From a virus: a stretch of DNA of 45,600 bases. Shown here piece by piece: positions 3,873 through 45,034 of this stretch; position 1 is the first letter of the stretch; each line of letters begins with the position of its first letter. The notes beneath the pieces are model-generated. The model was not told the DNA's origin. It made no database searches and was given only the letters and a program-made list of their open reading frames with translations. Where the stretch lies: positions 1-45,600 of the IMG/VR virus record IMGVR_UViG_3300005663_000081. One strand, 5' to 3'. The position numbers and the translations under genes are program-made.

Positions 3873-4744
3873 TGATCTTACCTGACGGGCCACTGATTCG
3901 GTCTCAATTCTCAGTCCACCGGTTCAACACCGACACCAAGGCACTCTGGAACGCCATCTACCACAACCGCCAGACCCAACTTGGGAACACAGCTACGCTT
4001 GTGAACTTCGGCGATGAGTCTAATGCTGGGTTAGTAACTGCTTCTACCTTTACGGGTATGAAATATCACGCCTCGGGGTTGTCTCCTATATGGACACCAA
4101 GTAGTGCTCTGAGCGCATTCGCTACTCCCTTCCTCTTAGGAGCCAGTTCTAATTGGAAACAGCACATACCCGTTCTTACCATGGACGGTGTAACTGATGA
4201 GATGGACACGCCGGACAATGCGTTTTGGTCGGATGCTGGGGCGTTCAGTGTCGGGGCGTGGATATATCTGAATACGATTGCCAGCAACGTAATTCTAGCC
4301 AAGTGGGATGAAACCACCTCATCTGAAGATAGGGAATTCCATTTCAGCGTCGATTCCAACGGAGACATTGGGTTCACCATCTACGACGAAACGAATAACG
4401 CTGCGGTAGGTCGTAAAGACGATGTGGCTCTTACTGTAAACACTTGGTATTTCGTAGTTGGGACTTTTAGTGGTGGGACTGATGCGGCTGACGTATCCAT
4501 CTATATAGATGGTGTGGCTACAGATGATGCAGACATAGTTGATGATGCTGGATTTGCCAACGAAGTTGCGGGCGCGACCATCACGTCCCTTGGTTATTTA
4601 CTAGGCACAAGCACTGCCAAGGAACAGCTATTTGACGGAATAATCGCTGGTGGCCCGTGTGGTCCGTTCTTTGTCCTTGCTGAGTTGACTGCGGAACAGA
4701 TTGCCAACCTTTATCGGCTGGAAAGATTGGCCCTGGACGTTTAA
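3872..4744 (+). CDS. LamG / concanavalin A-like lectin domain protein
   Basis: 290 aa. Residues about 110-260 show the LamG/ConA-like pattern: F-S-V-G-A-W-I-Y, then V-x-G-T-F-S-G-G, then V-S-I-Y-I-D-G-V, then a Y-L-L-G strand. Such domains bind glycans and are common on phage tail surfaces. The C-terminal AGGPCGPFF followed by AEQIANLYRL recurs as AGGPLGPVF in the last domain of the 5582 gene, so the two are paralogous. It overlaps both neighbours by a stop-start junction. A receptor-binding or decoration role is inferred. Confidence 0.75.
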   Translation: MILPDGPLIRSQFSVHRFNTDTKALWNAIYHNRQTQLGNTATLVNFGDESNAGLVTASTFTGMKYHASGLSPIWTPSSALSAFATPFLLGASSNWKQHIPVLTMDGVTDEMDTPDNAFWSDAGAFSVGAWIYLNTIASNVILAKWDETTSSEDREFHFSVDSNGDIGFTIYDETNNAAVGRKDDVALTVNTWYFVVGTFSGGTDAADVSIYIDGVATDDADIVDDAGFANEVAGATITSLGYLLGTSTAKEQLFDGIIAGGPCGPFFVLAELTAEQIANLYRLERLALDV

Positions 4745-5589
4745 TGGAATCTCTAAACACTAAAAATTGTCCCATTTGCAAAGACCTATTCAAGGCCGGG
4801 GAGCGGTTGGCTCAACAAGTAGCTACCGACTCTCACGGTAATGCGAATATGGTCGAGTGGGTCCATGGTAAGTGTGCCAAGGAAGGTAGTGGTAAAGCTG
4901 GCCCTCCCGGTCCTAAGGGTGGTCCTCCTGGCCCAAAAGGAGACCCTGGCAAGGCTGGAGCGCGTGGTGAAAAGGGAAATCCAGGTAATGACGGGATAAA
5001 CGGACAAGACGGCTCGAATGGTTCCAATGGGTCTAATGGTCGAGACGGAGCCACTGGAAGTCCTGGGGAAGAAGGCAAGGTTGGACCTGATGGACCTCGC
5101 GGTGAACATGGCGACAAGGGAGATTCAGGACCAACAGGAGAACCTGGAGTACAGGGTGATGATGGCCCGATAGGTCTGACTGGTAGAGAGGTTAGAGGAC
5201 CGCGTGGCGAGAAAGGCAACAAGGGCGACGACGGACCTATTGGGCATCGTGGCACGGTAGGTGCTGAGGGGCCTCTGGGGGCTGCTGGTCAAAAAGGCGA
5301 CCTTGGTGCTGTAGGTCCGGAAGGACCTGCTGGGGCTGATGGTAAGGATGGACGGGACGGGAGAGACATCTCAACCACGGAAGTCCTTTCTGAGTTGGCA
5401 CGGCTGCGTAATATCGTGAGCAAGATGCCTTTGGTTGGGGTCATCGTCTGTCCTGAGTGCGGAAGGTTGTGGGACACCGTAGACGATTTGCACGCTGGTA
5501 TGAGCAACCGGGTGATTTTTACTTGCGAGTGCAATACTGACCTTGTCTTGACTGCGTCGGGTGTCCAGCGAAGGACATCCAGTGTCTAA
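4744..5589 (+). CDS. collagen-like protein with terminal zinc motifs
   Basis: 281 aa. Roughly residues 50-205 are Gly-X-Y collagen repeats (for example GPPGPKG), broken once around GREVRGPRG. The N-terminus has CPICKDLF with a later HGKC, and the C-terminus has CPECGRLWD with a CEC pair, so two putative zinc knuckles bracket the collagen rod. Phage collagen repeats form trimeric fibres or spacers in tails. The start is ATG overlapping the previous TAA (TAATG). The gene ends 7 nt into the next coding region. Confidence 0.85.
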   Translation: MESLNTKNCPICKDLFKAGERLAQQVATDSHGNANMVEWVHGKCAKEGSGKAGPPGPKGGPPGPKGDPGKAGARGEKGNPGNDGINGQDGSNGSNGSNGRDGATGSPGEEGKVGPDGPRGEHGDKGDSGPTGEPGVQGDDGPIGLTGREVRGPRGEKGNKGDDGPIGHRGTVGAEGPLGAAGQKGDLGAVGPEGPAGADGKDGRDGRDISTTEVLSELARLRNIVSKMPLVGVIVCPECGRLWDTVDDLHAGMSNRVIFTCECNTDLVLTASGVQRRTSSV

Positions 5590-7792
5590 TAAACATGGTT
5601 CGCTGTCTTTCGAGCAACACTACGCCACCAGAAGCGACACTCCCAGCGGCAGCGATGTAAAGATAGGCGTCGTGTGGGTGGATACCGACGACGGGACAGT
5701 CTACGTCTGCACCAGTCTCGGTCCGATAGTCTTTACGCAGATAAGCGGGGTCGGTGATGTAGTAGGCCCGTCATCGGCTACTGATAACGCTATCGTTCGG
5801 TTTGACGGCACCACCGGGAAACTGATTCAAGACTACTCTTCCACTGCGCCTACCGTTTCAGATGACGGCAAGGTAGGGATTGGGAATACTAGTCCTCAAG
5901 AATTGTTGCATGTGGGAGCAGGAACAAATGCATCTGATATATCGGCAACTGATTTATTAGTAACCAAAGCTGGGCCAAGTAATTTATCAGTTAGAGACAG
6001 TACAAATGGTGTTGAGACATTTCTTTTTGCTTCCTCTGCCGGTGGCATTCTGGGGACCATTACAAATGACCCATTAGATATTAAGACTAACAATAGTAGT
6101 GCTATTTTTATTGATGCCTCTCAGAATGTAGGAATCGGAACTACGACACCTAATGCTGAACTAGAGATAGTAGGGGATATAAGGGTTAAAACTATCCATG
6201 AGGTTACTGATGAGGGTCTGGTTCTATCTACAAACTTCAATACAGAAAGCATAAACGGAAACACTGTCTTAGATTCCTCAACGTTCAATAATCATGGTAC
6301 TAATAACGGAGCAACACACAATCCTTCTGGTGGATTCAACAGTGGTGGAGATTATGCTTTCAATGGATCTTCTGATTTCATTAACATCGATACGGCTTTA
6401 ACCAACTCACTTGCTTCAACCACAAAAGGTACATGGACAGCTTGGGTAAAGCCTGTTGATGCTACACCATTAGATTCAGAAACTTTTATTGCGTTTGGAG
6501 ACGTAAATGCAAATGAATTTATATATATCACTATTCTTCCTGCGGGTAAATTTAATGCTTTTTCAAGAAGTGCTGCTAGCTTAAAATTTACTTTACAGAC
6601 TGATTCAGTAGTCTTTTCAGACAATACTTGGACACATGTTGCTTTAGCTCAAGATGGTGTTTCCCCTGTAATATATATTGATGGGGTTGCCGTTGCCCAG
6701 GCATTTATAACGGAGATAGATAAAACATATTGGTTTAATGACGCTCCTAATCTGGACAATGGAAGAATCGGGACTGTAAATAGGAATAGTGAGGGTGAAG
6801 TATTACATTTCAACGGAGACATAGATGAAGTAAAAATCTACAATAGAGCTTTATCAGCAGACGAAGTGAGAGCTTTGTATGAACAAAGAACAGAAGGAAA
6901 TAATAGCTATGTAAGCCAGAGAGATATGGAGATTGATATAAATGGTAATGCAAAATTGGGCACTCTGGCTCTATCTGGGGCTCTGACGCTCAAGGTGAGT
7001 GACAATCAAGCTCGGTGGGCTGCGCTTTATGAGGCTCGATTAGACCTGCTTGGATTGGACTGTCTCCTTGTTCCGATGGGAGATACGAATCATGAAGCGG
7101 GCGACCGGACCACGGTAACGACCGTTGGTGACGAGCAGGTAGTTTTCACTTACACCGAAGCAGTAACCTCATGGGATACGCCACCTACAGTAAAAGGTCC
7201 ATTATCTATACCGGTTATCAATTTTAACCAGAGTGATGAATGGTTGGAAACGCCTGATGCCGCTTTCTGGAACGATAGTGCAGGGTCGAGTGAGCCAAGT
7301 TATTGTTGGGCATTCTGGGTAAACGTGGTAGCGGGAGCCTCTGGGCAGTCCCTGATGATGAAATCTACCGCTAACAATAACCAGGGCCAGAACTGGGTAA
7401 CTATTGTAGATAGCGATGAAACATTTAGGTGTCGGATAATTGATGATACTGCAAATGCCTTCATCGGTGCCAGGTCAGGGGTACTCTCAGCTGGATGGCA
7501 TCACTTAGCAGCCACCAAACACGATGACGCCATAACCAGTGCTTCGATCATCACTTATATAGATGGTGAAGTGGACCGTACTGATAATACCAATGGTACA
7601 TATGCTGACCAACAGGATGGGACTCAAGTAGTGCGAATAGGAGCAGAAACAGACGGGGGAAATCCATTGGGTTCCCCGGTTGCTGGTGGTCCGCTTGGTC
7701 CCGTTTTCCGTCCAGTTGGTACCGGAGCAGTCTGGACGCCCGATGCGATACGCCGGGATTTTCAACTTGGTCGGGCGGTTTTGGGAGTTTAA
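5582..7792 (+). CDS. tail fibre-like protein with two LamG domains
   Basis: About 736 aa from GTG 5582, chosen because GAAGGA lies 6 nt upstream; the in-frame GTG at 5561 has no such site. The N-terminal half has a repeat typical of fibre or adhesin proteins (VGIGNTSPQELLHV, later VGIGTTTPNAELEI). A first LamG domain follows (WTAWVKP, VIYIDGVAV, FNGDIDEVKIYNRALS), then a second near the C-terminus (WAFWVNV, ITYIDGEV, AGGPLGPVF) related to the 3872 protein. The stretch about 5900-6960 is visibly richer in A+T than its flanks, suggesting an inserted module. Likely host-receptor binding. Confidence 0.8.
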   Translation: MSNKHGSLSFEQHYATRSDTPSGSDVKIGVVWVDTDDGTVYVCTSLGPIVFTQISGVGDVVGPSSATDNAIVRFDGTTGKLIQDYSSTAPTVSDDGKVGIGNTSPQELLHVGAGTNASDISATDLLVTKAGPSNLSVRDSTNGVETFLFASSAGGILGTITNDPLDIKTNNSSAIFIDASQNVGIGTTTPNAELEIVGDIRVKTIHEVTDEGLVLSTNFNTESINGNTVLDSSTFNNHGTNNGATHNPSGGFNSGGDYAFNGSSDFINIDTALTNSLASTTKGTWTAWVKPVDATPLDSETFIAFGDVNANEFIYITILPAGKFNAFSRSAASLKFTLQTDSVVFSDNTWTHVALAQDGVSPVIYIDGVAVAQAFITEIDKTYWFNDAPNLDNGRIGTVNRNSEGEVLHFNGDIDEVKIYNRALSADEVRALYEQRTEGNNSYVSQRDMEIDINGNAKLGTLALSGALTLKVSDNQARWAALYEARLDLLGLDCLLVPMGDTNHEAGDRTTVTTVGDEQVVFTYTEAVTSWDTPPTVKGPLSIPVINFNQSDEWLETPDAAFWNDSAGSSEPSYCWAFWVNVVAGASGQSLMMKSTANNNQGQNWVTIVDSDETFRCRIIDDTANAFIGARSGVLSAGWHHLAATKHDDAITSASIITYIDGEVDRTDNTNGTYADQQDGTQVVRIGAETDGGNPLGSPVAGGPLGPVFRPVGTGAVWTPDAIRRDFQLGRAVLGV

Positions 7793-21224: not shown

Positions 21225-21488
21225 TTAGCTCCGGGCTAAGATTCTCCGTATCGTCCGCACGGTCACCCCGTAGTCTTTGGCCACCTTTCGTATCGCTTCC
21301 AGTCTGGTCATGGTTTGTTCTGCTAGAAGCACCGCATTCGCCCTCTCAGCGTCAAGTTTGGCCTGTTCCTGTTGTTGCTTAGTGACATCATGGATGCAGG
21401 CAGGAAGTGGGCACTTTAGGCAAGTCTCTGATTCTTCGCAACCGGTGTCTTGGTAGATAACTTCTTGCAGCCTTCCAGCTTCAAGCAT
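21225..21488 (-). CDS. Cys-cluster helix-turn-helix protein
   Basis: 87 aa. DTGCEESETCLKCPLPACIHD is a compact four-Cys cluster. The C-terminus KVAKDYGVTVRTIRRILARS is a clear helix-turn-helix. This layout suggests a small DNA-binding regulator. The ATG overlaps the HNH stop (TAATG). Comparison with the fragment on the other side of the HNH gene (DGELEQAVF versus AGRLQEVIY) suggests that its original N-terminus lies there and that the present start is secondary. Confidence 0.7.
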   Translation of the reverse strand: MLEAGRLQEVIYQDTGCEESETCLKCPLPACIHDVTKQQQEQAKLDAERANAVLLAEQTMTRLEAIRKVAKDYGVTVRTIRRILARS

Positions 21489-21958
21489 TAAATGGCTCTC
21501 TTGAGTGCCGCTCGGTAATTAACACATGGGCGACATTGCCGTCCCCCTGCGGGCGAGATATAAGTATTCAATGAGTTGAACTCGTGGCCACGATTGCAGT
21601 GGGTTTGTAGTTGCCCTCGCAATCCCCTTTTTACATTTGTTGAATGAGTTACCGCCTCTAGATGGGCAGGCTTGACACATGGAGGGTTCCTACACAAGTG
21701 GTCTATCTCTAACCCTTCAGGTATCGGGCCAACAAGTTGTTCATAGGCCCAGCGGTGGGCACGTACTGCTTCCAGCCGTGCATTAACCTTGAAACGCCCA
21801 TAGCCAAGGGAATATTTTGCGGCAAGCCACAGCCAGCAGGGTGTTCCGTTCCAAAGAGGACCATTCTTATCGACCTTGGCCCAAAAGCGTTCTTCTGGAG
21901 GGATAAGGGGAGGACCTTTGGTTTGACCAGGGGTTCGGGTGTAAACTCCGGTAGGCAT
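21488..21958 (-). CDS. HNH homing-type endonuclease
   Basis: 156 aa, same group as 14569 and 33834: FWAKVDKNGPL, GTPCWLW, HRWAYEQL, LEIDHLCRNPPCVKPAHLE, and a C-terminal HCNRGH/CRPC knuckle. Free-standing and probably mobile. Located between a zinc/basic protein and the HTH gene it seems to have displaced, with a TGATATAAT promoter upstream. Confidence 0.9.
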   Translation of the reverse strand: MPTGVYTRTPGQTKGPPLIPPEERFWAKVDKNGPLWNGTPCWLWLAAKYSLGYGRFKVNARLEAVRAHRWAYEQLVGPIPEGLEIDHLCRNPPCVKPAHLEAVTHSTNVKRGLRGQLQTHCNRGHEFNSLNTYISPAGGRQCRPCVNYRAALKRAI

Positions 21959-22020
21959 AAAAATACCGCCTGTTCCAACTCACCATCTTGCTCATAGTGA
22001 GCCGGAGCAAGCGGCGTAGA
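21957..22020 (-). pseudogene. possible relic of the HTH gene N-terminus
   Basis: The minus-strand frame TPLAPAHYEQDGELEQAVF reads like coding sequence and aligns with the start of the downstream HTH protein (EAGRLQEVIY). It ends exactly where the HNH ATG begins. I interpret it as the remaining 5' segment of the interrupted gene. Confidence 0.4.
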
Positions 22021-22023
22021 TAT

Positions 22024-22032
22024 ATTATATCA
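22024..22032 (-). promoter_or_regulatory. extended -10 promoter upstream of HNH 21488
   Basis: TGATATAAT on the minus strand, identical to the box before the 18520 HNH gene. The TGA is also the stop codon of the 22030 gene. Unlike the other HNH promoters, the HNH ATG is about 65 nt downstream. Confidence 0.6.
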
Positions 22033-22221
22033 CTCTAGCTTTGAGAGAGTGTGTCCAACGTGGAAATGATTCCCGAACAGACATTGGTAAGCTTCAGGAA
22101 TCATCTTGTCGTAGATAACCTCCCGTTGCATCTCTAAGGCTCTTTGCTGGGCCTCTTTGAGTTCACGGTACACGATCTTCCTGAGACAGCCCCGCTGGTG
22201 TCTGTAGGCTTTAGTTGTCAA
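22030..22221 (-). CDS. small basic protein with His/Cys tail
   Basis: 63 aa from TTG 22221 (AAAGG 9 nt upstream); an upstream in-frame TTG at 22245 would overlap the previous gene more. RKIVYRELKEAQQRALEMQREV is helical and basic. AYQCLFGNHFHVGHT looks like a partial zinc motif common in small phage proteins. Function unknown. Confidence 0.6.
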   Translation of the reverse strand: MTTKAYRHQRGCLRKIVYRELKEAQQRALEMQREVIYDKMIPEAYQCLFGNHFHVGHTLSKLE

Positions 22222-26726: not shown

Positions 26727-26912
26727 CTAGGATTCCCATCCAACATCTTTGCAATTCTTCTCAACCAGATCGAACACAGCCCAGGGGGTTAGATGACTGT
26801 ATCCATCCAGAGTGGATAACTCAGCGATGGCTTGGCAAAGCACCGCCTCCATGTGGCTTTTGTCCTCCTTCCGCATTAGTTGGTCAAAGGTTGATTCTCT
26901 TACTTCGCCCAT
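26727..26912 (-). CDS. small early protein, 61 aa
   Basis: The start at 26912 (MGEVRESTFDQLMRK) has GGAGAAG upstream; a TTG at 26939 is less likely. Helical throughout, ends KNCKDVGWES. Function unknown. Confidence 0.55.
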   Translation of the reverse strand: MGEVRESTFDQLMRKEDKSHMEAVLCQAIAELSTLDGYSHLTPWAVFDLVEKNCKDVGWES

Positions 26913-26945
26913 TCTCTCTTCTCCATCGGGTTGGTTCAAGGCTGG

Positions 26946-27056
26946 TTAGCTAGTCGGTCTATAGCCACAGTTCATGCAATGACCGCCAAAGTTCATATGC
27001 CAAGCTGCGCAAGGGACTGTCAGCTTTTTAGTCTTGCTGTATTCTACGTGGGTCAT
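26946..27056 (-). CDS. zinc-binding micro-protein, 36 aa
   Basis: MTHVEYSKTKKLTVPC...HCMNCGY gives C, H, C-x2-C, enough for one zinc site. AAGGAG lies 8 nt before the ATG. Not similar to a family I know. Confidence 0.55.
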   Translation of the reverse strand: MTHVEYSKTKKLTVPCAAWHMNFGGHCMNCGYRPTS

Positions 27057-27083
27057 GGTATCCGCTCCTTATAGTTTAGACTT

Positions 27084-27164
27084 TCACTTACTTGGCTTAT
27101 TTCTAGTTATGACCAGCCCCATCGTGATAGCTTCTTCAACAAACGTGATTTGGTCGTCGGTCAT
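27084..27164 (-). CDS. micro-protein, 26 aa
   Basis: MTDDQITFVEEAITMGLVI... starts behind TGGAG. A short amphipathic helix with no motif. The longer in-frame ORF from 27281 would overlap the upstream gene heavily. Confidence 0.4.
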   Translation of the reverse strand: MTDDQITFVEEAITMGLVITRNKPSK

Positions 27165-27192
27165 GGTGTCTACTCCATCGGGTTGATTAGGG

Positions 27193-27369
27193 TTAGAGTC
27201 CAAAGTATTCAGCGTGTCTTTGGTAGCCATAAGCAAGAGCTTCGGCCTTGGAATTGTGCCGTGGTCCAAGTACCGCTCCATCTTCAGTCTCTACTAGATA
27301 CCACCACCGGCCATGTTTGGTTATTCCGAATCCGGGCAGTGCTCCAATTTTCGTAAAGGTGTTTTGCAT
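27193..27369 (-). CDS. small early protein, 58 aa
   Basis: The start at 27369 (MQNTFTKIGALPG) has GGAGGCAACC upstream. KHGRWWYLVETEDGAV is a short beta-hairpin-like stretch and AEALAYGYQRHAEYFG a helix. First gene of the leftward region; function unknown. Confidence 0.55.
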   Translation of the reverse strand: MQNTFTKIGALPGFGITKHGRWWYLVETEDGAVLGPRHNSKAEALAYGYQRHAEYFGL

Positions 27370-27533
27370 GGTTGCCTCCATCTGAATCTGATATGGCTAC
27401 TAGGTTAAGTTGTGTGAATTAGAACTAACGGACCATTCCCGCTGGCTTCTCATTCAATGGTTTAATCTGCTTAATGATTCATACTCCAATTGTTTCTTAC
27501 CTGTTAAGGGAAGTTTAAGGGGTAGAACCCACG
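27370..27533. other. divergent control region between leftward and rightward genes
   Basis: No coding sequence. It separates the leftward early genes from the rightward promoter at 27534. It is A+T-richer than the flanks and contains a direct repeat TTAAGGG...TTTAAGGGG near 27504-27523, which could be an operator. No clear leftward promoter is visible by eye. Confidence 0.4.
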
Positions 27534-27562
27534 TTGTCAAGCATTGGTTTTTCAGGTAAGAT
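27534..27562 (+). promoter_or_regulatory. rightward promoter, leaderless spacing
   Basis: TTGTCA, a 17-nt spacer and TAAGAT are followed by 6 nt (AGCAGA) and the ATG of the zinc-ribbon gene at 27569. Same geometry as the minus-strand promoters. Confidence 0.65.
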
Positions 27563-27568
27563 AGCAGA

Positions 27569-27709
27569 ATGATAGAGATAACGACACAGGGCTGGGAATG
27601 TCAAAGGTGCCAGCACAAATGGATACCGAAGAAAGCCACAAAGCCGCTAATATGTCCAAGATGCAAGTCTCCGTACTGGGACAGACCACGTAAGAGTGTG
27701 CTAAGATAA
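27569..27709 (+). CDS. zinc-ribbon protein, 46 aa
   Basis: GWECQRCQHKWIPKKATKPL followed by CPRCKSPYWDRPRK is a small zinc-ribbon type found widely in bacteria and often near regulators or toxin-antitoxin genes. There it is presumed to bind nucleic acid or partner proteins. Leaderless start, then a pseudoknotted terminator-like RNA directly after the stop. Confidence 0.75.
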   Translation: MIEITTQGWECQRCQHKWIPKKATKPLICPRCKSPYWDRPRKSVLR

Positions 27710-27717
27710 CTTCATTA

Positions 27718-27792
27718 GCCGCTTGTCTGGCTGCTAGGTAATCGGAATCGACCCTGATTACAGACAAGCTAGCAGCCAGCCGGGCGGCTTTT
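27718..27792 (+). terminator. terminator with pseudoknot or alternative-pairing potential
   Basis: TGGCTGCTAG (27728-27737) pairs with CTAGCAGCCA (27769-27778), and GCCGC (27718-27722) with GCGGC (27784-27788), followed by TTTT: an intrinsic terminator. GCTTGTCTG (27721-27729) also pairs with CAGACAAGC (27761-27769), and GTAATC with GATTAC inside. The order A-B-A'-B' is that of a pseudoknot or a switch between two folds. Confidence 0.65.
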
Positions 27793-27794
27793 AC

Positions 27795-28100
27795 TTGTGG
27801 GGAGCCTCTGCAATTGGGTAAACTCCCCTCCTAGTTTCAGGGGAGAGCCTCTTGCACGCTGTAGAAGGGAGTTGTGTGCTTGTAGGTGCGGATCCTACCG
27901 TGTGTAGCTACCAAGAGACTTTCCACCTGAGCCTAGGAATAGGTTCACTGTAGAAGCCACGTAGAGCCTAAATAGGGCATGTGGCAGGCTACTTGGTCAG
28001 CGGAGTCCGGCCACGGCGTAAGCGGGCTGGGATACCTTTGGGATCGGAAAGCTCCGCTGACCAACCACCGTATTAGGTGATGTGGTTAAACTCACCTGGA
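27795..28100 (+). ncRNA. structured RNA of unknown family, copy 1
   Basis: No good ORF. The 5' part has GGGGAG/CTCCCC, where CTCCCCT can instead pair with a later AGGGGAG, and a GCCAC...GTGGC hairpin at about 27956-27985. The 3' part has a perfect 13-bp stem, 27993-28005 with 28052-28064, enclosing the conserved GGGATCGGAAAG. An H-type pseudoknot follows: AACCAC 28063-28068 with GTGGTT 28082-28087, and AGGTGA 28075-28080 with TCACCT 28092-28097. A second copy lies at 28381. I know no family with this core. Confidence 0.6.
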
Positions 28101-28106
28101 CCCCCT

Positions 28107-28211
28107 ATGAAGAAACACCGACGAATCAATTGTGAGAATTGCAAGATGCGTCATTTAGACCTAATGCTCCGGCCAGACAGACGGGGCACCTATACGGGTC
28201 AACCAAGATGA
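28107..28211 (+). CDS. small basic Cys protein, 34 aa
   Basis: MKKHRRINCENCKMRH has one C-x2-C and a basic N-terminus. Ends RGTYTGQPR, overlapping the next ATG (ATGA). Located just after the RNA copy 1 pseudoknot, which could control its translation. Confidence 0.5.
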   Translation: MKKHRRINCENCKMRHLDLMLRPDRRGTYTGQPR

Positions 28212-28354
28212 ACAAACTAAATCTAAAGACACCGCGGTTCCCGCATCACAGTCGTAAAGCTCCTGTAAGCAAGGAAAAGCGACTGCGAATTATTGAGGAC
28301 CGTAACTGGGCTGCTCGGAATGGCCCAGTGGTGGTGATAAAGCCTGCCGACTAG
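28208..28354 (+). CDS. small basic protein, 48 aa
   Basis: MNKLNLKTPRFPHHSRKAPV... starts by ATGA overlap. Basic with a RRIIEDRN-like helix and a GPVVVIKPAD end. No motif. Lies between the two structured RNA copies. Confidence 0.5.
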   Translation: MNKLNLKTPRFPHHSRKAPVSKEKRLRIIEDRNWAARNGPVVVIKPAD

Positions 28355-28380
28355 AGATATGTGAAAGAATGGACGTTCTC

Positions 28381-28530
28381 TTGGTCGCCAGCTGCGGGTG
28401 GAGAGACCTTATACCCGGTAGTGTCGGGATCAGAAAGGTACTCGTCAGGCTATCTAATCGAGTGTAAAGCTCCGGCGAACCAGCGCCGTTAATACGTGAG
28501 GGGTTGTGGGGACCAGGACTGGCGTAATAG
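28381..28530 (+). ncRNA. structured RNA of unknown family, copy 2
   Basis: TTGGTCGCCAGCT (28381-28393) pairs with AGCTCCGGCGAACCA (28468-28482) as a bulged stem. It encloses GGGATCAGAAAG (28426-28437), which matches copy 1 at 11 of 12 positions. The stem sequence differs from copy 1 while pairing is kept. CCGTTAATACGTGA...TTGTGG downstream parallels CCGTATTAGGTGA...TGTGG in copy 1. The loop is longer here. A 32-codon ORF from the ATG at 28371 overlaps it but lacks support. The following 100 bases show nothing I can assign. Confidence 0.55.
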
Positions 28531-28638
28531 CTTGATTGAAAGATATATTACCTTGAAGTCAAACTACTAGACAGGACGAACCTACCGAGTAACCAAGTCA
28601 TACCTACCGGAGGCAACCAACCTTGAAGGGAGTGAGAC

Positions 28639-28725
28639 ATGCTTTCAATACTAGCCATTATCGGTCTTGCAGTGATATTCCTACTTCCTGGCATTATCCT
28701 AGGTTGGTCTAGAAGAAAACTCTGA
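28639..28725 (+). CDS. single-helix membrane micro-protein, 28 aa
   Basis: MLSILAIIGLAVIFLLPGII is one membrane helix, followed by a basic end WSRRKL. AAGGGAG precedes the ATG. Could be a lysis, toxin-like or membrane-remodelling peptide; unknown. Confidence 0.5.
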   Translation: MLSILAIIGLAVIFLLPGIILGWSRRKL

Positions 28726-28783
28726 ATGCAGAGCTCATATCGTATACCGAAACCTGGCGTACTCAGTCCACTAGGAGACCAAG

Positions 28784-28838
28784 ATGATATTGCGTTGTAG
28801 ATGGTGTCCGGATAAAGAAGTTACAGAGGATGATTATT
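28784..28838 (+). pseudogene. 5' part of a Cys-rich small gene cut by the IS
   Basis: MILRCRWCPDKEVTEDDY starts behind TAGGAGACC and runs into the left inverted repeat of the IS at 28839. A C-x2-C pair is visible. No matching 3' part is evident after 30712. Confidence 0.4.
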
Positions 28839-28864
28839 GCGGGATTATATACTTCATGCTAGGC
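28839..28864 (+). repeat. IS left inverted repeat
   Basis: Starts GCGGGATTATATACTT. It matches the reverse complement of 30687-30712 at 22 of 26 positions by eye. Confidence 0.85.
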
Positions 28865-28881
28865 CGTGATAGAATTGGGGC

Positions 28882-29607
28882 ATGTTTAGGCGTCTATCTA
28901 AAATTGGTGGCCCGTTGATTGGCGCAATCGGTTTCATCACGTTGCCGAGTGATTTAGGGACTTGGGGCACTCGCCTCAAGGATATTGCGCAGATTGGCAT
29001 TGACAATCCGCTGTCAGTGTTGGCTATTTGCCTTGGCGTTGTACTTCTTGGGTATGGGTACTGGGATAGCCTGCGGCTCAAGGTGCTGGGGTCAAAGCGT
29101 TGGCGTTCAGACAAAGAGATGGGGGATGAATTACATGGGTGGTTGCGTCAAGCGCATTTCCAACTACAAGACCAGCCTACCCCGAATAGTGATTTTGTTT
29201 TCGTTGCAACTGAACCCATGGCAAATCGCCCCGTCACCATAGCAAAGTTGAGTAATGAGCCAGGCGTTCGATTACAAGGACGGGTAATCCTTAGCGATGA
29301 GCAAAAGACGTTGTTTCAGGCTATGCTTGCGAATGAACAACATATCGTCTTAAGTGATGTTGCTATCGAGTTGGCAAGATTAGATATTGGGTTTGATGGG
29401 CGGGACCTTGTGAATGAGGGTTTCTCTGTCATCGCTGGATTTATACCCAGCGAGACCATGACTCAGTCCCAGTTCTTACAGCGTGTGGGCGCAGTGAGCC
29501 GCGCTATTCTCATGGTACAAGCCTCACTAAACCGTTATCTTCTTACCCCAGATATTGTGGCGACCATGCAAGCACAGTTACCCCCTGACTTAACTGCTAA
29601 TCAGTGA
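28882..29607 (+). CDS. IS passenger: membrane-anchored protein, 241 aa
   Basis: The N-terminus has two hydrophobic stretches (GGPLIGAIGFITLP and PLSVLAICLGVVLLGYGYW). A soluble domain of about 180 aa follows (VTIAKLSNEPGVRLQGRVIL, LSDVAIELARLDIGF), then a C-terminal helix with LLTPDIVATM. No catalytic motif is recognised. Promoter TGATAGAAT lies 6 nt before the ATG, giving a leaderless mRNA. It lies inside the IS ends, so it is probably host-derived cargo. Confidence 0.7.
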   Translation: MFRRLSKIGGPLIGAIGFITLPSDLGTWGTRLKDIAQIGIDNPLSVLAICLGVVLLGYGYWDSLRLKVLGSKRWRSDKEMGDELHGWLRQAHFQLQDQPTPNSDFVFVATEPMANRPVTIAKLSNEPGVRLQGRVILSDEQKTLFQAMLANEQHIVLSDVAIELARLDIGFDGRDLVNEGFSVIAGFIPSETMTQSQFLQRVGAVSRAILMVQASLNRYLLTPDIVATMQAQLPPDLTANQ

Positions 29608-29618
29608 GTCAAGAAACA

Positions 29619-30515
29619 CTATGCCGTTAGTTCTTTGTACTCCAAATTCTCAGACTGCAAAAGCCGAACGAGCGTATCCCGGAATAAGAAAGGGTTGTCC
29701 CGGTTATTGAACCGCCATTCGAGTTCATCCAGATAGGCATCCAAATGTTTGATAGAGACCTTATGAAAAGAACCGATGATAGACCGCTTCAAGAGACTCC
29801 ATACACCCTCGACGGAGTTCGTGTGAACATCGCCACGGACATATTCTTTGATGGAGTGGTTGACCGTCTCATGCCGGGTATCTTCGTCTCCAATTCCCCG
29901 GTACGGTCGCCAGTCGTCGGTGTGGATAGCTTCGGCTTCGTCGGCAACGGCTTCCTCAGCGAAAGCGTGGAGAGTCTTGCGAGTCCGGTCTGGAACCACT
30001 TGGAGGATAATCTTGCCTTCCCTCTGGACGGCTCCAACAACGATGGCTTTGTTGCCCTTGTAGCCATGACCTTTGCCCCGAACTTCGCCACCAACAAAAG
30101 TCTCGTCAATCTCTACGATGCCCTTGAGTTTGATGGGAGAAGCGTCTTGGACAGCGGCCCGGATTCGGTGGGAGAGATACCAAGCGGTCTTGTAGGAAAT
30201 ACCGAGCGTCCGCGACAATTGATTCGCGGATATACCCTTTTTGGATTCAATCATCAGGTAAGCGGCCATGAACCATTTGTTAAGGGGCAAGTGAGTGTCA
30301 TGGAGGATTGTCCCGGCAGTAACCGAGAAGTTGTATTTGCAATCTTCACAGATGAACTGGTTGCGCTTGTAGCTCCGGGAGATCTTGACGCTCCCGCACC
30401 GGAGACAGGCAATTCCATCAGGCCAGCGGAGGGTTTCCAAGTATTCCCGGCACCTATCTTCGGAATGGAATTGGTCCACCAATTTAATTAGATTCATATC
30501 CTGAGTTTTAGTCAT
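29619..30515 (-). CDS. IS1595-family transposase
   Basis: 298 aa. An N-terminal zinc ribbon (CLRCG, CEDCKYNFS, residues 37-64), a helix-turn-helix-like segment (GISANQLSRTLGISYKTAWY), and a DDE core: D137 in EIDETFVGG, D200 in IHTDDWRPY, E236 in NSVEGVWSLLKR. Full length and apparently intact. The start at 30515 has AAGGAG on the minus strand. Catalyses movement of the element. Confidence 0.93.
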   Translation of the reverse strand: MTKTQDMNLIKLVDQFHSEDRCREYLETLRWPDGIACLRCGSVKISRSYKRNQFICEDCKYNFSVTAGTILHDTHLPLNKWFMAAYLMIESKKGISANQLSRTLGISYKTAWYLSHRIRAAVQDASPIKLKGIVEIDETFVGGEVRGKGHGYKGNKAIVVGAVQREGKIILQVVPDRTRKTLHAFAEEAVADEAEAIHTDDWRPYRGIGDEDTRHETVNHSIKEYVRGDVHTNSVEGVWSLLKRSIIGSFHKVSIKHLDAYLDELEWRFNNRDNPFLFRDTLVRLLQSENLEYKELTA

Positions 30516-31598: not shown

Positions 31599-32138
31599 AT
31601 GCTAGAGATTGAACCAACCGGTTCGCCGCAAGACTACGGTTTCCCAGAGAAACCTACTGCCCAGCAAATAACTACTTGGACGTTGCAAGAGAAGTTTCTA
31701 GCCGAGTACCGTGGTATTGGGGCTGTGATGCTGGCGTGCGAGACTGCTGGGCATACGTATCAAGCGTTTAAACAGTGGGTTGATTTAAACAAGTTTAACT
31801 TTCAAAAGAGGTACGAGGACGCCCAAGCGTATGTCCTAGAGCGAATGATAGTCTCAATCGACCGCAGAGCATTTGAAGGCTACGATCACCCGGTTATCTT
31901 CAAGGGTAAGGTTACTGACACGTACAAAGCCTGGGACAGCAACCTAGCCATGTTCAGAGTCAAGAAGCTGGACCCCAGCTACCGGGACAACTCCAAGGAA
32001 GTCGAGGACCTTTCAGCCATCCGTGAATCTCTTGAAGCACTGCGTAGCCTTGGCACTCCACGGCTTGAGGCCCCAAAGGTGGTTGATTCCACGTCCCATG
32101 TGGTCTCTGACACGGAAGATGAGAAACAAGGGCCTTAA
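31599..32138 (+). CDS. terS: terminase small subunit-like protein
   Basis: 179 aa. FLAEYRGIGAVMLACETAG, then YQAFKQWVDLN, then FEGYDHPVIFKGKVTDTYKAWDSNLAMFRVKKLDPSYRDN follows the order seen in small terminase subunits with an N-terminal HTH (arrest of the gap in TerS families of tailed phages). TerS recognises phage DNA for packaging. Leaderless start: TGGTAGACT, 6 nt, ATG. TerL lies 4 kb downstream with micro-genes and tRNAs between. Confidence 0.75.
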   Translation: MLEIEPTGSPQDYGFPEKPTAQQITTWTLQEKFLAEYRGIGAVMLACETAGHTYQAFKQWVDLNKFNFQKRYEDAQAYVLERMIVSIDRRAFEGYDHPVIFKGKVTDTYKAWDSNLAMFRVKKLDPSYRDNSKEVEDLSAIRESLEALRSLGTPRLEAPKVVDSTSHVVSDTEDEKQGP

Positions 32139-35621: not shown

Positions 35622-35751
35622 ACCGGGGAACCAGACTGTCAGGCAAGAATGCCGCCATGCTATTATGAAGACGCTGAAAAAGCTGAATCCGTCCAACCAG
35701 GAGATGCAGGCCGAACTGAAAAAGAATGATGGTTGCATGAAGCCCTTATAG
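35614..35751 (+). CDS. small basic protein overlapping a tRNA, 45 aa
   Basis: MCKPGNQTVRQECRHAIMKT...; AGGAGAGGTG precedes the ATG. The last three codons and the stop lie inside the 5' arm of tRNA-Thr, so processing of that tRNA would cut this message near its stop. Confidence 0.5.
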   Translation: MCKPGNQTVRQECRHAIMKTLKKLNPSNQEMQAELKKNDGCMKPL

Positions 35752-35816
35752 CTCAATTGGCAGAGCGGTAGTTTTGTAAACTACTGACCGGGGTTCGATT
35801 CCTCGTGGGGGCTCCA
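35742..35816 (+). tRNA. tRNA-Thr (anticodon TGT)
   Basis: The 7-bp acceptor GCCCTTA/TGGGGGC (with G-U pairs), anticodon arm GTAGT-TTTGTAA-ACTAC with TGT, T-arm GGTTCGATT and an encoded CCA at 35814-35816 are all present. Reads ACA codons. Confidence 0.88.
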
Positions 35817-35819
35817 AGA

Positions 35820-35893
35820 GCATTTGTCGTTTAATGGTAGGACCTCTGCCTTCCAAGCAGATGATGTGGGTTCGATTCCCGCCAGATGTTCCA
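35820..35893 (+). tRNA. tRNA-Gly (anticodon TCC)
   Basis: Anticodon arm TCTGC-CTTCCAA-GCAGA with TCC, T-arm GGGTTCGATTCCC, encoded CCA at 35891-35893. The acceptor has one terminal G-U pair, so the first base assignment may shift by one. Reads GGA codons. Confidence 0.85.
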
Positions 35894-35922
35894 AAATACT
35901 GTACCCAGTATGGTCTAAGCGG

Positions 35923-35953
35923 CCTAGGGAGCTAATCTCCTAGGTCGTTTTTC
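35923..35953 (+). terminator. rho-independent terminator after the tRNAs
   Basis: CCTAGGGAG (35923-35931) pairs with CTCCTAGG (35937-35944) with one bulge, followed by TCGTTTTTCTT. It separates the micro-gene/tRNA segment from the packaging genes. The stem and loop faintly resemble a tRNA-Ser anticodon arm. Confidence 0.65.
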
Positions 35954-35955
35954 TT

Positions 35956-36087
35956 ATGCCTCTAAAAGATGGTTCAAGCGACAAGGTTATCAGCGATAAC
36001 GTCCGTGAACTGATGAAGTCTGGAAAAAGAACCAGAGACCAGGCGGTTGCAATCGCCCTGCGTAAAGCTGGAAAGCCTAAAAAGTGA
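35956..36087 (+). CDS. conserved small phage protein beside terminase, 43 aa
   Basis: [20 protein letters not shown]...[20 protein letters not shown] matches a widespread phage small-protein pattern (G-S-S-x-K-x-I-S-x-N...[11 protein letters not shown]). The TGA overlaps the terminase GTG. Role unknown; the DNA-binding look suggests packaging. Confidence 0.75.
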
Positions 36088-37601
36088 CTACCGCAGTAGA
36101 TGTATACGAAGGAATATCTCCCGCTGCGGCTGCGCTCTATAAACAGATAGGGTTTGAGCCGACCGGCCCAGAGCAAAGAACCATTCTTGCGTCTAAGAAG
36201 AGGAAGATAGGACTCTCAGGCGGAGAAGGCGCAGGGAAGTCGGTTCTCGCTTCCAAGATATGGATGGGCAGGTGGCCTGACGACATGGCGGCTAATCCGA
36301 CTTACGGTGACGGTGTCGGAGACCCCCTGCTTTATTGGCTAGTTGGAGAGGATTACTCTCAAGTAGAGGCAGAATTCCACTATATCAAGCAAGACCTGGA
36401 GGAATTGGGTTATCCAATCGATTCTTCCAACATCGTGGACCCAGGCCATATCAAACTCCAACTTCCAAAAGAACGTAACCCTAGATTACTCATTGAGACT
36501 AAAAGCGCCCGTGATCCTTCGAGATTAACCCGTCAACGCCCCCATGGGATACTTCATTGTGAGCCTGGCCTTTCCACGGTCGCTACTTACGAACGCCTGA
36601 ACGGTCGTATCGCTGGCGTTAGAGGGTGGCTGGCTCTGGTAGGGACGTTAGAGGGGTCAATGGGGTATTATCCCCAGTTACTGCAAGCGTGGGCCTCTGG
36701 CGCAGGGGATGAGCAGAGTTTTGAACTTCCTTCTTGGACCAATACACATTATTACCCTGGAGGACGCCAAGACCCTGAGATATTACGCCTGGAAAGAGAA
36801 AGTTCCGACGCGTATTTCATGGAAAGAATCGCTGGGAAGGTCGTTCCGCCGAAGGGATTGGTAATAAACGAGTTCAGGGCTGATATCCATGTCAAAGACG
36901 TGCAATACGACCCCAATTACCCCGTTTATATGTGTGAAGACCCCGGATATGGGGCTCATTCAGCCCACGCATTGCCGGTTTACCAGAATATCGACCACCA
37001 AATCAGGGTTTTTGACCTTATCTACGAACGAGGGCTGATAACGTCCGAGATTATCCGAATCGCCCAAAGAAGGGATTGGTGGAAGGGTCAGAAACAGTTG
37101 GTCATCGACCCGCATTACAAGGACCAACACCACGCCAACCACTCAGTTTCGGAGATTTGGCGGCGAGAGGCGGGAATAACTCCGGAAGCCAACGAACGCG
37201 TTCCGTCTGGACCTGGTATCGAGCGGTTGAAAGGATATTTTAAGGTTGATGCCTTTGGAGTGCCAGGGATAGTTATCTCACCTCATTTACAAGGATTGTT
37301 GAGTGAATTGGGCGCGGCGTTGGACCCGTTTGACAACAAGTCCTACCACCCGTGGAAGTGGAAAGAGGACCGTATGGGTCAGGTTGTCGGCATGGAGCCT
37401 TTGGACGAATACAACCATGCCTGCAAGGCCCTGATTTACTCGATAGTCCATAATTTCGGGTTTGCCTACGGTCAGGAAAGACGGGTTGGAAAGGTCACTC
37501 GGAGAGGTCAAAATATCCAAGGTATCAACCCATTGGCTAAAGCCGGAACCAACCAAACCAACTATGGAGACAACCTTACTACCACCGTGCGGAGACGCTG
37601 A
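36084..37601 (+). CDS. terL: terminase large subunit
   Basis: 505 aa from GTG in GTGA overlap. Walker A is GGEGAGKS (46-53); the Walker B-like strand ends ILHCEPG, with E160 the likely catalytic acid; motif III is [11 protein letters not shown]. The C-terminal nuclease has ED in [10 protein letters not shown] and D in VIDPHYKDQ. It pumps DNA into the prohead and cuts it. The Walker B Asp is replaced by Cys, which is unusual. Followed immediately by the portal gene. Confidence 0.93.
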
Positions 37602-43351: not shown

Positions 43352-43389
43352 GAACGAAATACATATCAAGTAGAGATAGAGCGCATGGT

Positions 43390-43420
43390 CGCATATCCCT
43401 TCGGGGAGTGCGGCTTTTTT
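43390..43420 (+). terminator. rho-independent terminator with TTCG loop
   Basis: CGCA-TA-TCCC, loop TTCG, GGGA-G-TGCG, then GGCTTTTTT. A very stable UUCG hairpin followed by a six-T run. Placed just before scaffold and capsid, it may lower read-through or mark a processed 5' end. Confidence 0.75.
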
Positions 43421-43441
43421 ATTGCCCAATTCTGGAGGATT

Positions 43442-44143
43442 ATGAGTCAGCAGAATATCACCGATGAAACGGAAGAGGTAACCACTGAAGCGACGGAGCA
43501 ATGGGCTTCTGACTCAGATAGGTTGGCTCAGGAGGGCGCACCAGAGGCGGATGCACCTCCCTCTACTGAAGCGGAACTCCCTCCTGAGCCCTCCCCTGAA
43601 CTAGTTGCGGCTCAAACACAGATAGCTGAACTCACCCGTGAACGGGAAGAACGAGCGCAAGAAGCCAACGCAGCGGCGATTGAGGGCAATTCGCGGGACA
43701 TGGCAGACCGGTATGCCCAGAACCTAGTTGCAAACGGTAACTACACCGAGGAACAAGCTAGGGCACAAGCTGAATCAGAGCGTTTACGTTGGGTGGCAGA
43801 AGAACGCTTGAAGCTGTCGGACGGACGTGTGGAATCTCTTCATCTAGCCTACGGAGCCAAGGACTTAGCCCGGACATACGGCATCTCAGAAGAATCCTTG
43901 CAAGGTTTCAGCACCATCGACCAGATGGAGAAATACGCGAGGGTGGCTGGTAGCCAAGATAAAAGAATCTCAGCGTTAGAGCAGGGAAAAAGAAATGAAG
44001 CTGCGCCAGTACAGCCATACGCTACACAGGCTAGTCCTGGGGCGAGTGGCGATGGTTCTTACGTAACCAAGCTAAAGAGCGGCGGAGCCCTGCCTTCCTC
44101 AAGCGAAATAGACCAGATAACTGCAAAGTTCCTACAACAGTAA
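43442..44143 (+). CDS. putative scaffolding protein
   Basis: 233 aa from the ATG at 43442 behind GGAGG. Acidic, Glu/Pro-rich head, then a coiled coil (QIAELTREREERAQEANAA), a long helix with RLRWVAEERLKLSDGR, and a basic C-terminal end. Size, charge pattern and position immediately before the capsid gene are typical of scaffolds that guide prohead assembly. Confidence 0.75.
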   Translation: MSQQNITDETEEVTTEATEQWASDSDRLAQEGAPEADAPPSTEAELPPEPSPELVAAQTQIAELTREREERAQEANAAAIEGNSRDMADRYAQNLVANGNYTEEQARAQAESERLRWVAEERLKLSDGRVESLHLAYGAKDLARTYGISEESLQGFSTIDQMEKYARVAGSQDKRISALEQGKRNEAAPVQPYATQASPGASGDGSYVTKLKSGGALPSSSEIDQITAKFLQQ

Positions 44144-44155
44144 GAAGGGGGCACC

Positions 44156-45034
44156 ATCGCACAAGTTACATCAACCACAGCGGCCAACTTCATAGACGAG
44201 ATTTGGTCAAACGAATTAAACAGGGCAATCGAGTTCCAATTGGTGATCGCTGCATTATTTACCGACTGGACCTCAAAGATGAACATGGGTGGTTCTGGCG
44301 ATATCCTCCACCTCCCAGCCCGGCACAACCTGACGACTAACACGAAGTCTTCGGGATCTGATGCTACTCCAGAGGCAATCACGGAAAGTGAGCAGACCTT
44401 CACGGTCAGTCTCCACCAGATCGTGGCCCAGGATATAGAGGACTTTGCCGAGGTGATGTCGAAGTACGACATACGGAACGAATACACCCTAGCGGCGTCC
44501 TACTCGCTCGGACGCTCCATGGATGTTACTGCTGCGGCTTTGCTCGACGACAACACTCTCCAGTCGGTTGGTGTCCTTGCAGCCGAGATGACGGACGACA
44601 ACATGATTCGGGCGTGGCAGTTCCTCCAGGATAGTTCCGGGATGCCACCGTATGTAGGCGTGGTAAGCCCAGCGACTTGGGGTGGGTTCTTGAAGATCGA
44701 GAAGTTCACTCAACAGCTTTACAACGGCGACACCCAGGGCCGAGCGTTACATGACGCTGAGATTGGGCGTGTTTATCAAGCGAAGATGCACATGAGCAAC
44801 CTTACTGTTGGGACCGCCCCGAACTCAACTGGCCATATGTGGGCTGGTGAGCATTTCTTCAAGATCATCAAAAAGGCACCGAAACAGGATACGTGGTTTT
44901 CTCCTTTGGCGAAATCTTGGATAGTTGCCACCGACCAGATTTATGGGATGTTCGAGCGCGAAGAGGCTGACGAAGTGGCGTCGGTGACCACCACGGCCAA
45001 ACTGCACGGCGTCAGACTCCGGGGGTTGAAGTAA
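44156..45034 (+). CDS. major capsid protein (HK97-like)
   Basis: About 292 aa. Capsid features include FIDEIWSNELNRAIE, TESEQTFTVSLHQIVAQDIED, YSLGRSMDVTAAALLDD, YVGVVSPATWGGFLK and a C-terminal TTAKLHGVRLRGLK. The homologous N-terminus is AQVTSTTAANF, preceded by ATC at 44156 with AAGGGGG upstream; no ATG, GTG or TTG occurs before TTG 44237. I therefore propose an ATC start (the GTG at 44240 would remove 28 conserved-looking residues). The frame is the same as the scaffold's and separated from it by one TAA. Confidence 0.85.
   Translation: MAQVTSTTAANFIDEIWSNELNRAIEFQLVIAALFTDWTSKMNMGGSGDILHLPARHNLTTNTKSSGSDATPEAITESEQTFTVSLHQIVAQDIEDFAEVMSKYDIRNEYTLAASYSLGRSMDVTAAALLDDNTLQSVGVLAAEMTDDNMIRAWQFLQDSSGMPPYVGVVSPATWGGFLKIEKFTQQLYNGDTQGRALHDAEIGRVYQAKMHMSNLTVGTAPNSTGHMWAGEHFFKIIKKAPKQDTWFSPLAKSWIVATDQIYGMFEREEADEVASVTTTAKLHGVRLRGLK

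Follow-up and report, generated by a model that had tools for sequence, protein, structure and literature searches.

What kind of RNA stands at the entry to the rightward genes of this phage, and does it occur there twice? The window analysed here, a 45.6-kb virus record taken as a whole, belongs to a tailed phage with TerS at 31599-32138, TerL at 36084-37601 and the major head protein at 44240-45034. The best relatives of its TerL were environmental virus contigs with a top identity of 76%, and cultured phages stayed below 60%. The rightward (plus-strand) genes, an operon that includes the terminase, portal and head genes, begin right after a divergent switch from leftward genes, and it is at this start that the first-pass annotation had placed copy 1 of a duplicated structured RNA, with copy 2 further downstream. 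The features of this start are as follows.

27534 to 27562, plus strand: sigma-70-like promoter TTGTCA-N17-TAAGAT, preceding the late-direction genes (consensus scan, 9/12 matches, which over this region is the chance level)
27569 to 27709, plus strand: first small gene, a 46-aa zinc-ribbon-like protein with two CxxC pairs (translation)
27797 to 28106, plus strand: structured noncoding stretch of 310 nt, from the element W1 described below to the next small ORF (fold z -3.80, 0/100 shuffles)
27829 to 27938, plus strand: irregular hairpin, outer stem of 24 bp with two G-U pairs and single mismatches (mean pair probability 0.98)
27956 to 27985, plus strand: hairpin GCCACGT/ATGTGGC with inner GCCT/GGGC (mean pair probability 0.96-0.99)
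27993 to 28064, plus strand: stem-loop of copy 1 with 13 perfect bp, a G-U pair and inner hairpins (fold z, pair probabilities and inverted-repeat count)
28065 to 28096, plus strand: possible H-type pseudoknot CCAC/GTGG plus GGTGA/TCACC (letters only; the nested hairpin alone has a mean pair probability of 0.84)
28107 to 28211, plus strand: ORF of 34 aa with a CxxC, beginning 10 nt 3' of the copy 1 pseudoknot
28208 to 28354, plus strand: basic ORF of 48 aa, with relatives at 5627-5779 of the related contig L003 and 6013-6213 of contig L167
28355 to 28638, plus strand: noncoding stretch with the claimed copy 2 (28381-28530), without evidence of a special fold

The start codon of the 46-aa gene lies a few bases 3' of the promoter-like sequence, and the zinc-finger matches of its product were weak and below the cut-off. 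A small membrane ORF comes after the second noncoding stretch. The small basic protein of 28208-28354 matched no Pfam or PHROG family; it shares a W-A-x-R-x-G-P-V motif with its relatives and is encoded 5' of the terminase genes in both the window phage and L003.

The claim of a 13-bp perfect stem in copy 1 was confirmed, since the arms are present at 27993-28005 and 28052-28064. No other perfect inverted repeat in the window has arms of 13 nt or more around a loop of 3-60 nt, and 30 whole-window shuffles together produced one. The stem folded with a z-score of -5.16, and 0/200 shuffles were as good. Copy 1 had also been said to fall into no known RNA class, which agrees with our search, as Rfam had no match to positions 26900-28900 up to E 10; at gathering thresholds the 4227 Rfam models found two tRNAs only in the window. 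The H-type pseudoknot proposed behind copy 1 is there in its letters but not beyond chance, for knots of the same stringency start at 42 plus-strand positions. From the claim of an unrecognised structured RNA in two covarying copies, a folded 310-nt leader without Rfam match is thus retained and the two copies are not. The best explanation is that the copy 1 stem belongs, as one domain, to a structured leader RNA with which the rightward operon begins.

Relatives of this domain were not found. The covariance model of copy 1, searched against 44 related phage loci (332 kb) and the window, recovered only copy 1 and its reverse complement, and no counterpart was detectable even in the close relative L003. 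The noncoding region of L003 was considered as a homologue of the copy 1/2 RNA and rejected (fold z +0.70, no alignment signal), and so was the upstream region of L167, which was reached through the small basic protein and is not specially folded (z -0.63). A strong imperfect hairpin on both strands at 43524-43622, within the gene 43385-44143, gave a weak match to the copy 1 model (E 0.25-0.4) that is probably due to chance.

The second copy did not hold. The two strings on which the comparison was based are both present (GGGATCGGAAAG at 28040 and GGGATCAGAAAG at 28426), short common strings occur in the same order, and copy 1 with its 310-nt surroundings folds far better than shuffles, all of which would fit a duplicated structured RNA that has its own function, such as that of a trans-acting phage RNA. 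The local alignment of the copies was matched by 41/2000 shuffles under strict scoring and by 7/2000 under gap-tolerant scoring, i.e., a p of about 0.004-0.02 for regions that had been picked beforehand; when both whole noncoding regions were compared the score was ordinary (184/500 and 220/500 shuffles). Against the duplication, copy 2 passed none of the tests by fold, model and stem. Its fold was unremarkable (z +0.17 for 28382-28530, +0.95 for 28355-28638). The covariance model and the search for further copies that the first-pass annotation had recommended gave no copy 2 match in the window and no further copy in 332 kb of related phage loci; given the copy 2 region alone, the model scored 3.6 bits in a different register. 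The supposed covariation consists of a copy 2 stem with 7/9 pairs in register, two of them changed on both sides relative to copy 1, in a hand-picked alignment, and a 7/9 partner for the copy 2 stem arm arises in 979/2000 shuffles. A pattern of the 24-mer common to both copies found no match in IMG/VR, and neither the other loci nor L003 held a detectable relative. Copy 2 and the pseudoknot are at chance level and a two-copy RNA is not upheld; as a pair the duplicated RNA is largely refuted, and we hold this reading to be very improbable.

In the copy 2 region, a hairpin GCGGGTGGAG..CCT..ACCCGGTA occurs at 28394-28419 and again at 5900-5920 of L003, in both cases just 3' of the homologous small basic ORF, and in IMG/VR the full pattern matched the L003 contig alone. 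As a shared element it was rejected, since the relaxed pattern gave many chance-like matches and the local alignment was equalled by 237/500 shuffles, and it is kept as a lead only. A similar GGGTGGAG...ACCCGGTA is seen at 1208-1257 of contig L021, 5' of TerS.

The covarying RNA of this locus lies elsewhere. A scan of the window by fold z-score gave strong signals at 27661-27840 (plus) and 21961-22080 (minus), among several others, and the hairpins at these two sites have one build, which was also found in L003, the closest long relative, which brings the element to three occurrences, in two related marine phages. The descriptor scan by itself gives 1-3 matches per shuffled window, and because of this noise the weight rests on the later tests of the three elements. 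Their parts are given below.

27717 to 27792, plus strand: W1, long hairpin of the order O-A-B-C-A'-B'-O' with a T4 tail (inverted repeat; MFE -44.4 kcal/mol for 27717-27789; covariation; 85.8 bits with model R2, as a training member)
27722 to 27728, plus strand: A of W1, CTTGTCT, pairing with 27762-27768 as the 5' strand of the alternative (antiterminator-like) hairpin
27727 to 27737, plus strand: B of W1, CTGGCTGCTAG, 5' strand of the terminator stem (inverted repeat)
27738 to 27761, plus strand: C hairpin of W1, GTAATC/GATTAC; the same columns pair in L003
27762 to 27768, plus strand: A' of W1, AGACAAG, exact complement of A, bulged in the terminator fold (complementarity)
27769 to 27789, plus strand: B' and O' of W1, 3' strand of the terminator stem (inverted repeat)
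21959 to 22015, minus strand: W2, compact, without the C hairpin, with a T5 tail that abuts the ATG of the HNH gene 21488-21958 (z -3.85 for 21959-22215)
554 to 632 of L003, plus strand: L003 element with a T5 tail (descriptor scan)

All three elements follow the order O (GCCGC), A, B, an optional C hairpin, A', B', O' (GGCGG) and T4/5. The A and A' strands are exact complements in each (CTTGTCT/AGACAAG, CTTGCTC/GAGCAAG and CTCGTCC/GGACGAG), and in 3/3 elements the A' 7-mer, which lies in a loop or bulge, complements the 5' arm at arm position 5. In loop shuffles such complementarity arose with a chance of 0.030, 0.046 and 0.003 for the respective elements. They carry the features of intrinsic terminators: a GC-rich stem of 20-28 bp with -31.5 to -46.5 kcal/mol, and a T-run directly after the stem (T4 in W1, T5 in W2 and L003). 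The element regions of W2 and L003 had no credible Rfam match.

The three-sequence alignment comprised 23 named pairs in four helices; every cell (100%) was a standard pair and 8 pairs had changed on both sides, though the elements in which pairs were counted are also those from which the alignment was built, and it leaves B/B' of the HNH copy out of register. Neither 100% pairing nor 8 double changes was reached by any of 500 shuffles, and alignments slid as controls gave 28-52% pairing with 0-1 double changes. Within the A/A' helix 7/7 pairs were kept in 3/3 sequences (21 cells) and 4/7 had changed on both sides. A model made solely from W1 and L003 ranked W2 as the top window element outside its training set (21.6 bits, E 0.003), and after W2 and the reverse strand of W1 the next match was at 9.8 bits (E 2.5). 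Model R2, made from all three elements, found no fourth copy in 332 kb of related loci or in 11 whole related records, which are mostly fragments in which the relevant regions may be missing. Matches of the element pattern in a collection of prokaryote genomes look like chance, the best ones being without A/A' pairing. The covarying RNA is therefore the upstream element 27717-27792 with its two counterparts, which is better supported than copies 1 and 2; the original claim is corrected in that the informative covariation lies about 200 nt 5' of copy 1, at W1.

Inverted repeats may also act as DNA, in the form of operator half-sites, cruciforms or the end of a mobile element. The perfect copy 1 stem pairs on both strands, and an IS1595-type transposase gene is 1.5 kb away, which would suit such a role; we nevertheless regard it as highly improbable, as the half-sites vary from copy to copy in a concerted way, which is not the behaviour of protein binding sites, and as G-U pairs (3-6 per element, with others in the leader hairpin 27829-27938) bias the fold of the three elements to the sense strand. 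The complementary strands folded less well, with -38.6, -29.6 and -20.7 kcal/mol as compared to -44.4, -46.5 and -31.5 for the sense strands. Together, the weaker complementary fold and the G-U pairs favour an RNA of this sense.

For the full element the most stable fold is a single long stem with A' as a 7-nt bulge or loop, and this terminator fold lies far below the one in which A/A' is enforced (-42.8 vs -25.6, -46.5 vs -34.0 and -33.3 vs -13.7 kcal/mol). The order of folding was predicted from the MFE of growing prefixes: the A/A' hairpin was the MFE structure of prefixes of 52-60, 52-56 and 32-40 nt in the respective elements, and in 3/3 it was the best fold of prefixes ending before B', whereas addition of B' and O' flipped the fold to the terminator. 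Since A overlaps the 5' arm of the terminator, it takes part in both folds. At its variable positions A has either T or C, letters that match A or G of A' and are also able to form G-C or G-U pairs with G of the 3' arm, and this dual constraint is as predicted for a terminator/antiterminator switch. A simultaneous pseudoknot of A/A' and B/B' was rejected, because the connecting loops would be 0-2 nt and the strands overlap; for the same reasons we infer that the two pairings should exclude each other.

The elements could be ordinary intrinsic terminators, in which the 7-bp complementarity is a by-product of shared ancestral sequence and plays no role in switching. The stability of the terminator fold in 3/3 elements and the visible sequence similarity of W1 and L003 speak for this. 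A by-product would not, however, keep pairing in 21/21 cells with double changes at 4/7 pairs, and the complementarity has a chance of 0.3-5% per loop, so that we consider ordinary terminators unlikely. What was computed for the elements is the presence of three copies, covarying alternative pairings, a predicted fold order and an RNA-sense bias. On these grounds the balance leans modestly towards bistable transcription attenuators that serve as a repeated operon-entry switch, with W1 gating the structured leader and the late genes; termination, switching and their trigger are inferred from the fold models.

According to the proposed attenuator mechanism, W1 would be an intrinsic terminator whose 5' arm first pairs with the 7-nt A' to give an antiterminator-like hairpin. 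When the polymerase copies the 3' arm, the long terminator stem would displace the A/A' hairpin, and the T-run follows. If A/A' were held, most likely by a phage or host factor or by the pace of polymerase and ribosome, transcription would continue past W1 into the structured leader and on to the late genes, and the copy 1 RNA would be made only by this read-through. In the window phage the same device would act directly before the start codon of the HNH gene, and in L003 before that of a DnaG-type primase gene; its recurrence before these genes suggests a repeated operon-entry switch. Several points weaken the attenuator reading: there are only three copies in two phages, W1 has only T4, the promoters are weak by consensus (a TATAAT without matching -35 at W2; TTGACA, a 19-nt spacer and GATAAT at L003), no antitermination factor was identified, and W1 sits behind a small gene, not at a start codon, so that the contexts differ.

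That the hairpins end 6-7 nt before ATG at the HNH and CHC2 (DnaG-type) primase genes, with ATGCC at once after the T-run, would also fit a translational switch, in which the hairpin by the start codon hides a ribosome entry site (GGCGG..ATG, without a good Shine-Dalgarno) that is opened by A/A'. By a simple pattern, many genes of the window lack a clear Shine-Dalgarno. But W1 folds alike with no start codon behind it, and T4-T5 right after the GC-rich stem in 3/3 elements is the mark of an intrinsic terminator; a translational switch is improbable in our judgement.

If transcription attenuation is right, uncultivated phages would set the timing of whole operons by reusing a short self-competing terminator at several operon starts, and the three-member set with its natural compensatory changes makes this directly testable. 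A wider reading, possible if rather doubtful, is that a phage lineage known from environmental DNA alone uses compact bistable RNA gates that respond to some ligand or factor, with no known aptamer, as a common entry switch of replication, endonuclease and late operons, and that the leader 27797-28106 joins in the read-through.

As compared to known attenuators, such as riboswitch expression platforms and leader attenuators, the elements are alike in their leader position, in the T-run followed by a gene and in an early alternative hairpin sharing its 5' strand with an intrinsic terminator. They differ in that no aptamer, uORF, T-box or protein-leader motif was recognised, that A' is placed within the loop or bulge of the terminator, and that they stand in a phage at operon starts. 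Based on covariation and structure prediction, we call them a putative variant of the leader attenuator. Lambdoid phages have promoter-proximal terminators, namely lambda tR' with Q and the nut-controlled early terminators, which likewise follow a promoter, by some tens of nt up to about 220 nt, and precede a long read-through operon. To our knowledge these have no conserved competing hairpin, and here no Q or N homologue was identified. Terminators stand before lambdoid early genes, and the HK022 put RNAs, two related structured RNAs 3' of phage promoters, govern termination as antiterminators of about 70 nt with two hairpins that act on the polymerase in cis (PMC9378689). Compared by architecture, they are the opposite device in a similar place, our element being a predicted terminator. 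T7-type RNase III processing hairpins occur in phage polycistronic mRNA, and the irregular 24-bp leader hairpin 27829-27938 looks like one of these. The Xp10 antitermination protein p7 is of 7 kDa (PMC4513864); that the 46-aa zinc-ribbon protein encoded before W1 could be an antitermination protein of this size class is only a thought, by analogy.

Within the rightward operon, tRNA-Thr and tRNA-Gly at 35742-35950 are followed by an intrinsic-terminator-like T5 hairpin just 5' of TerL, so that late transcription must pass this hairpin or restart. The transposase gene (IS1595, ISXO2-like; 29619-30515, minus strand) also lies in this operon, between the leader and TerS. The 28882-29607 protein matches DUF2299 (E 2.5e-6, above the curated cut-off), and 4744-5589 encodes a collagen-like Gly-X-Y repeat protein with cysteine-rich ends.
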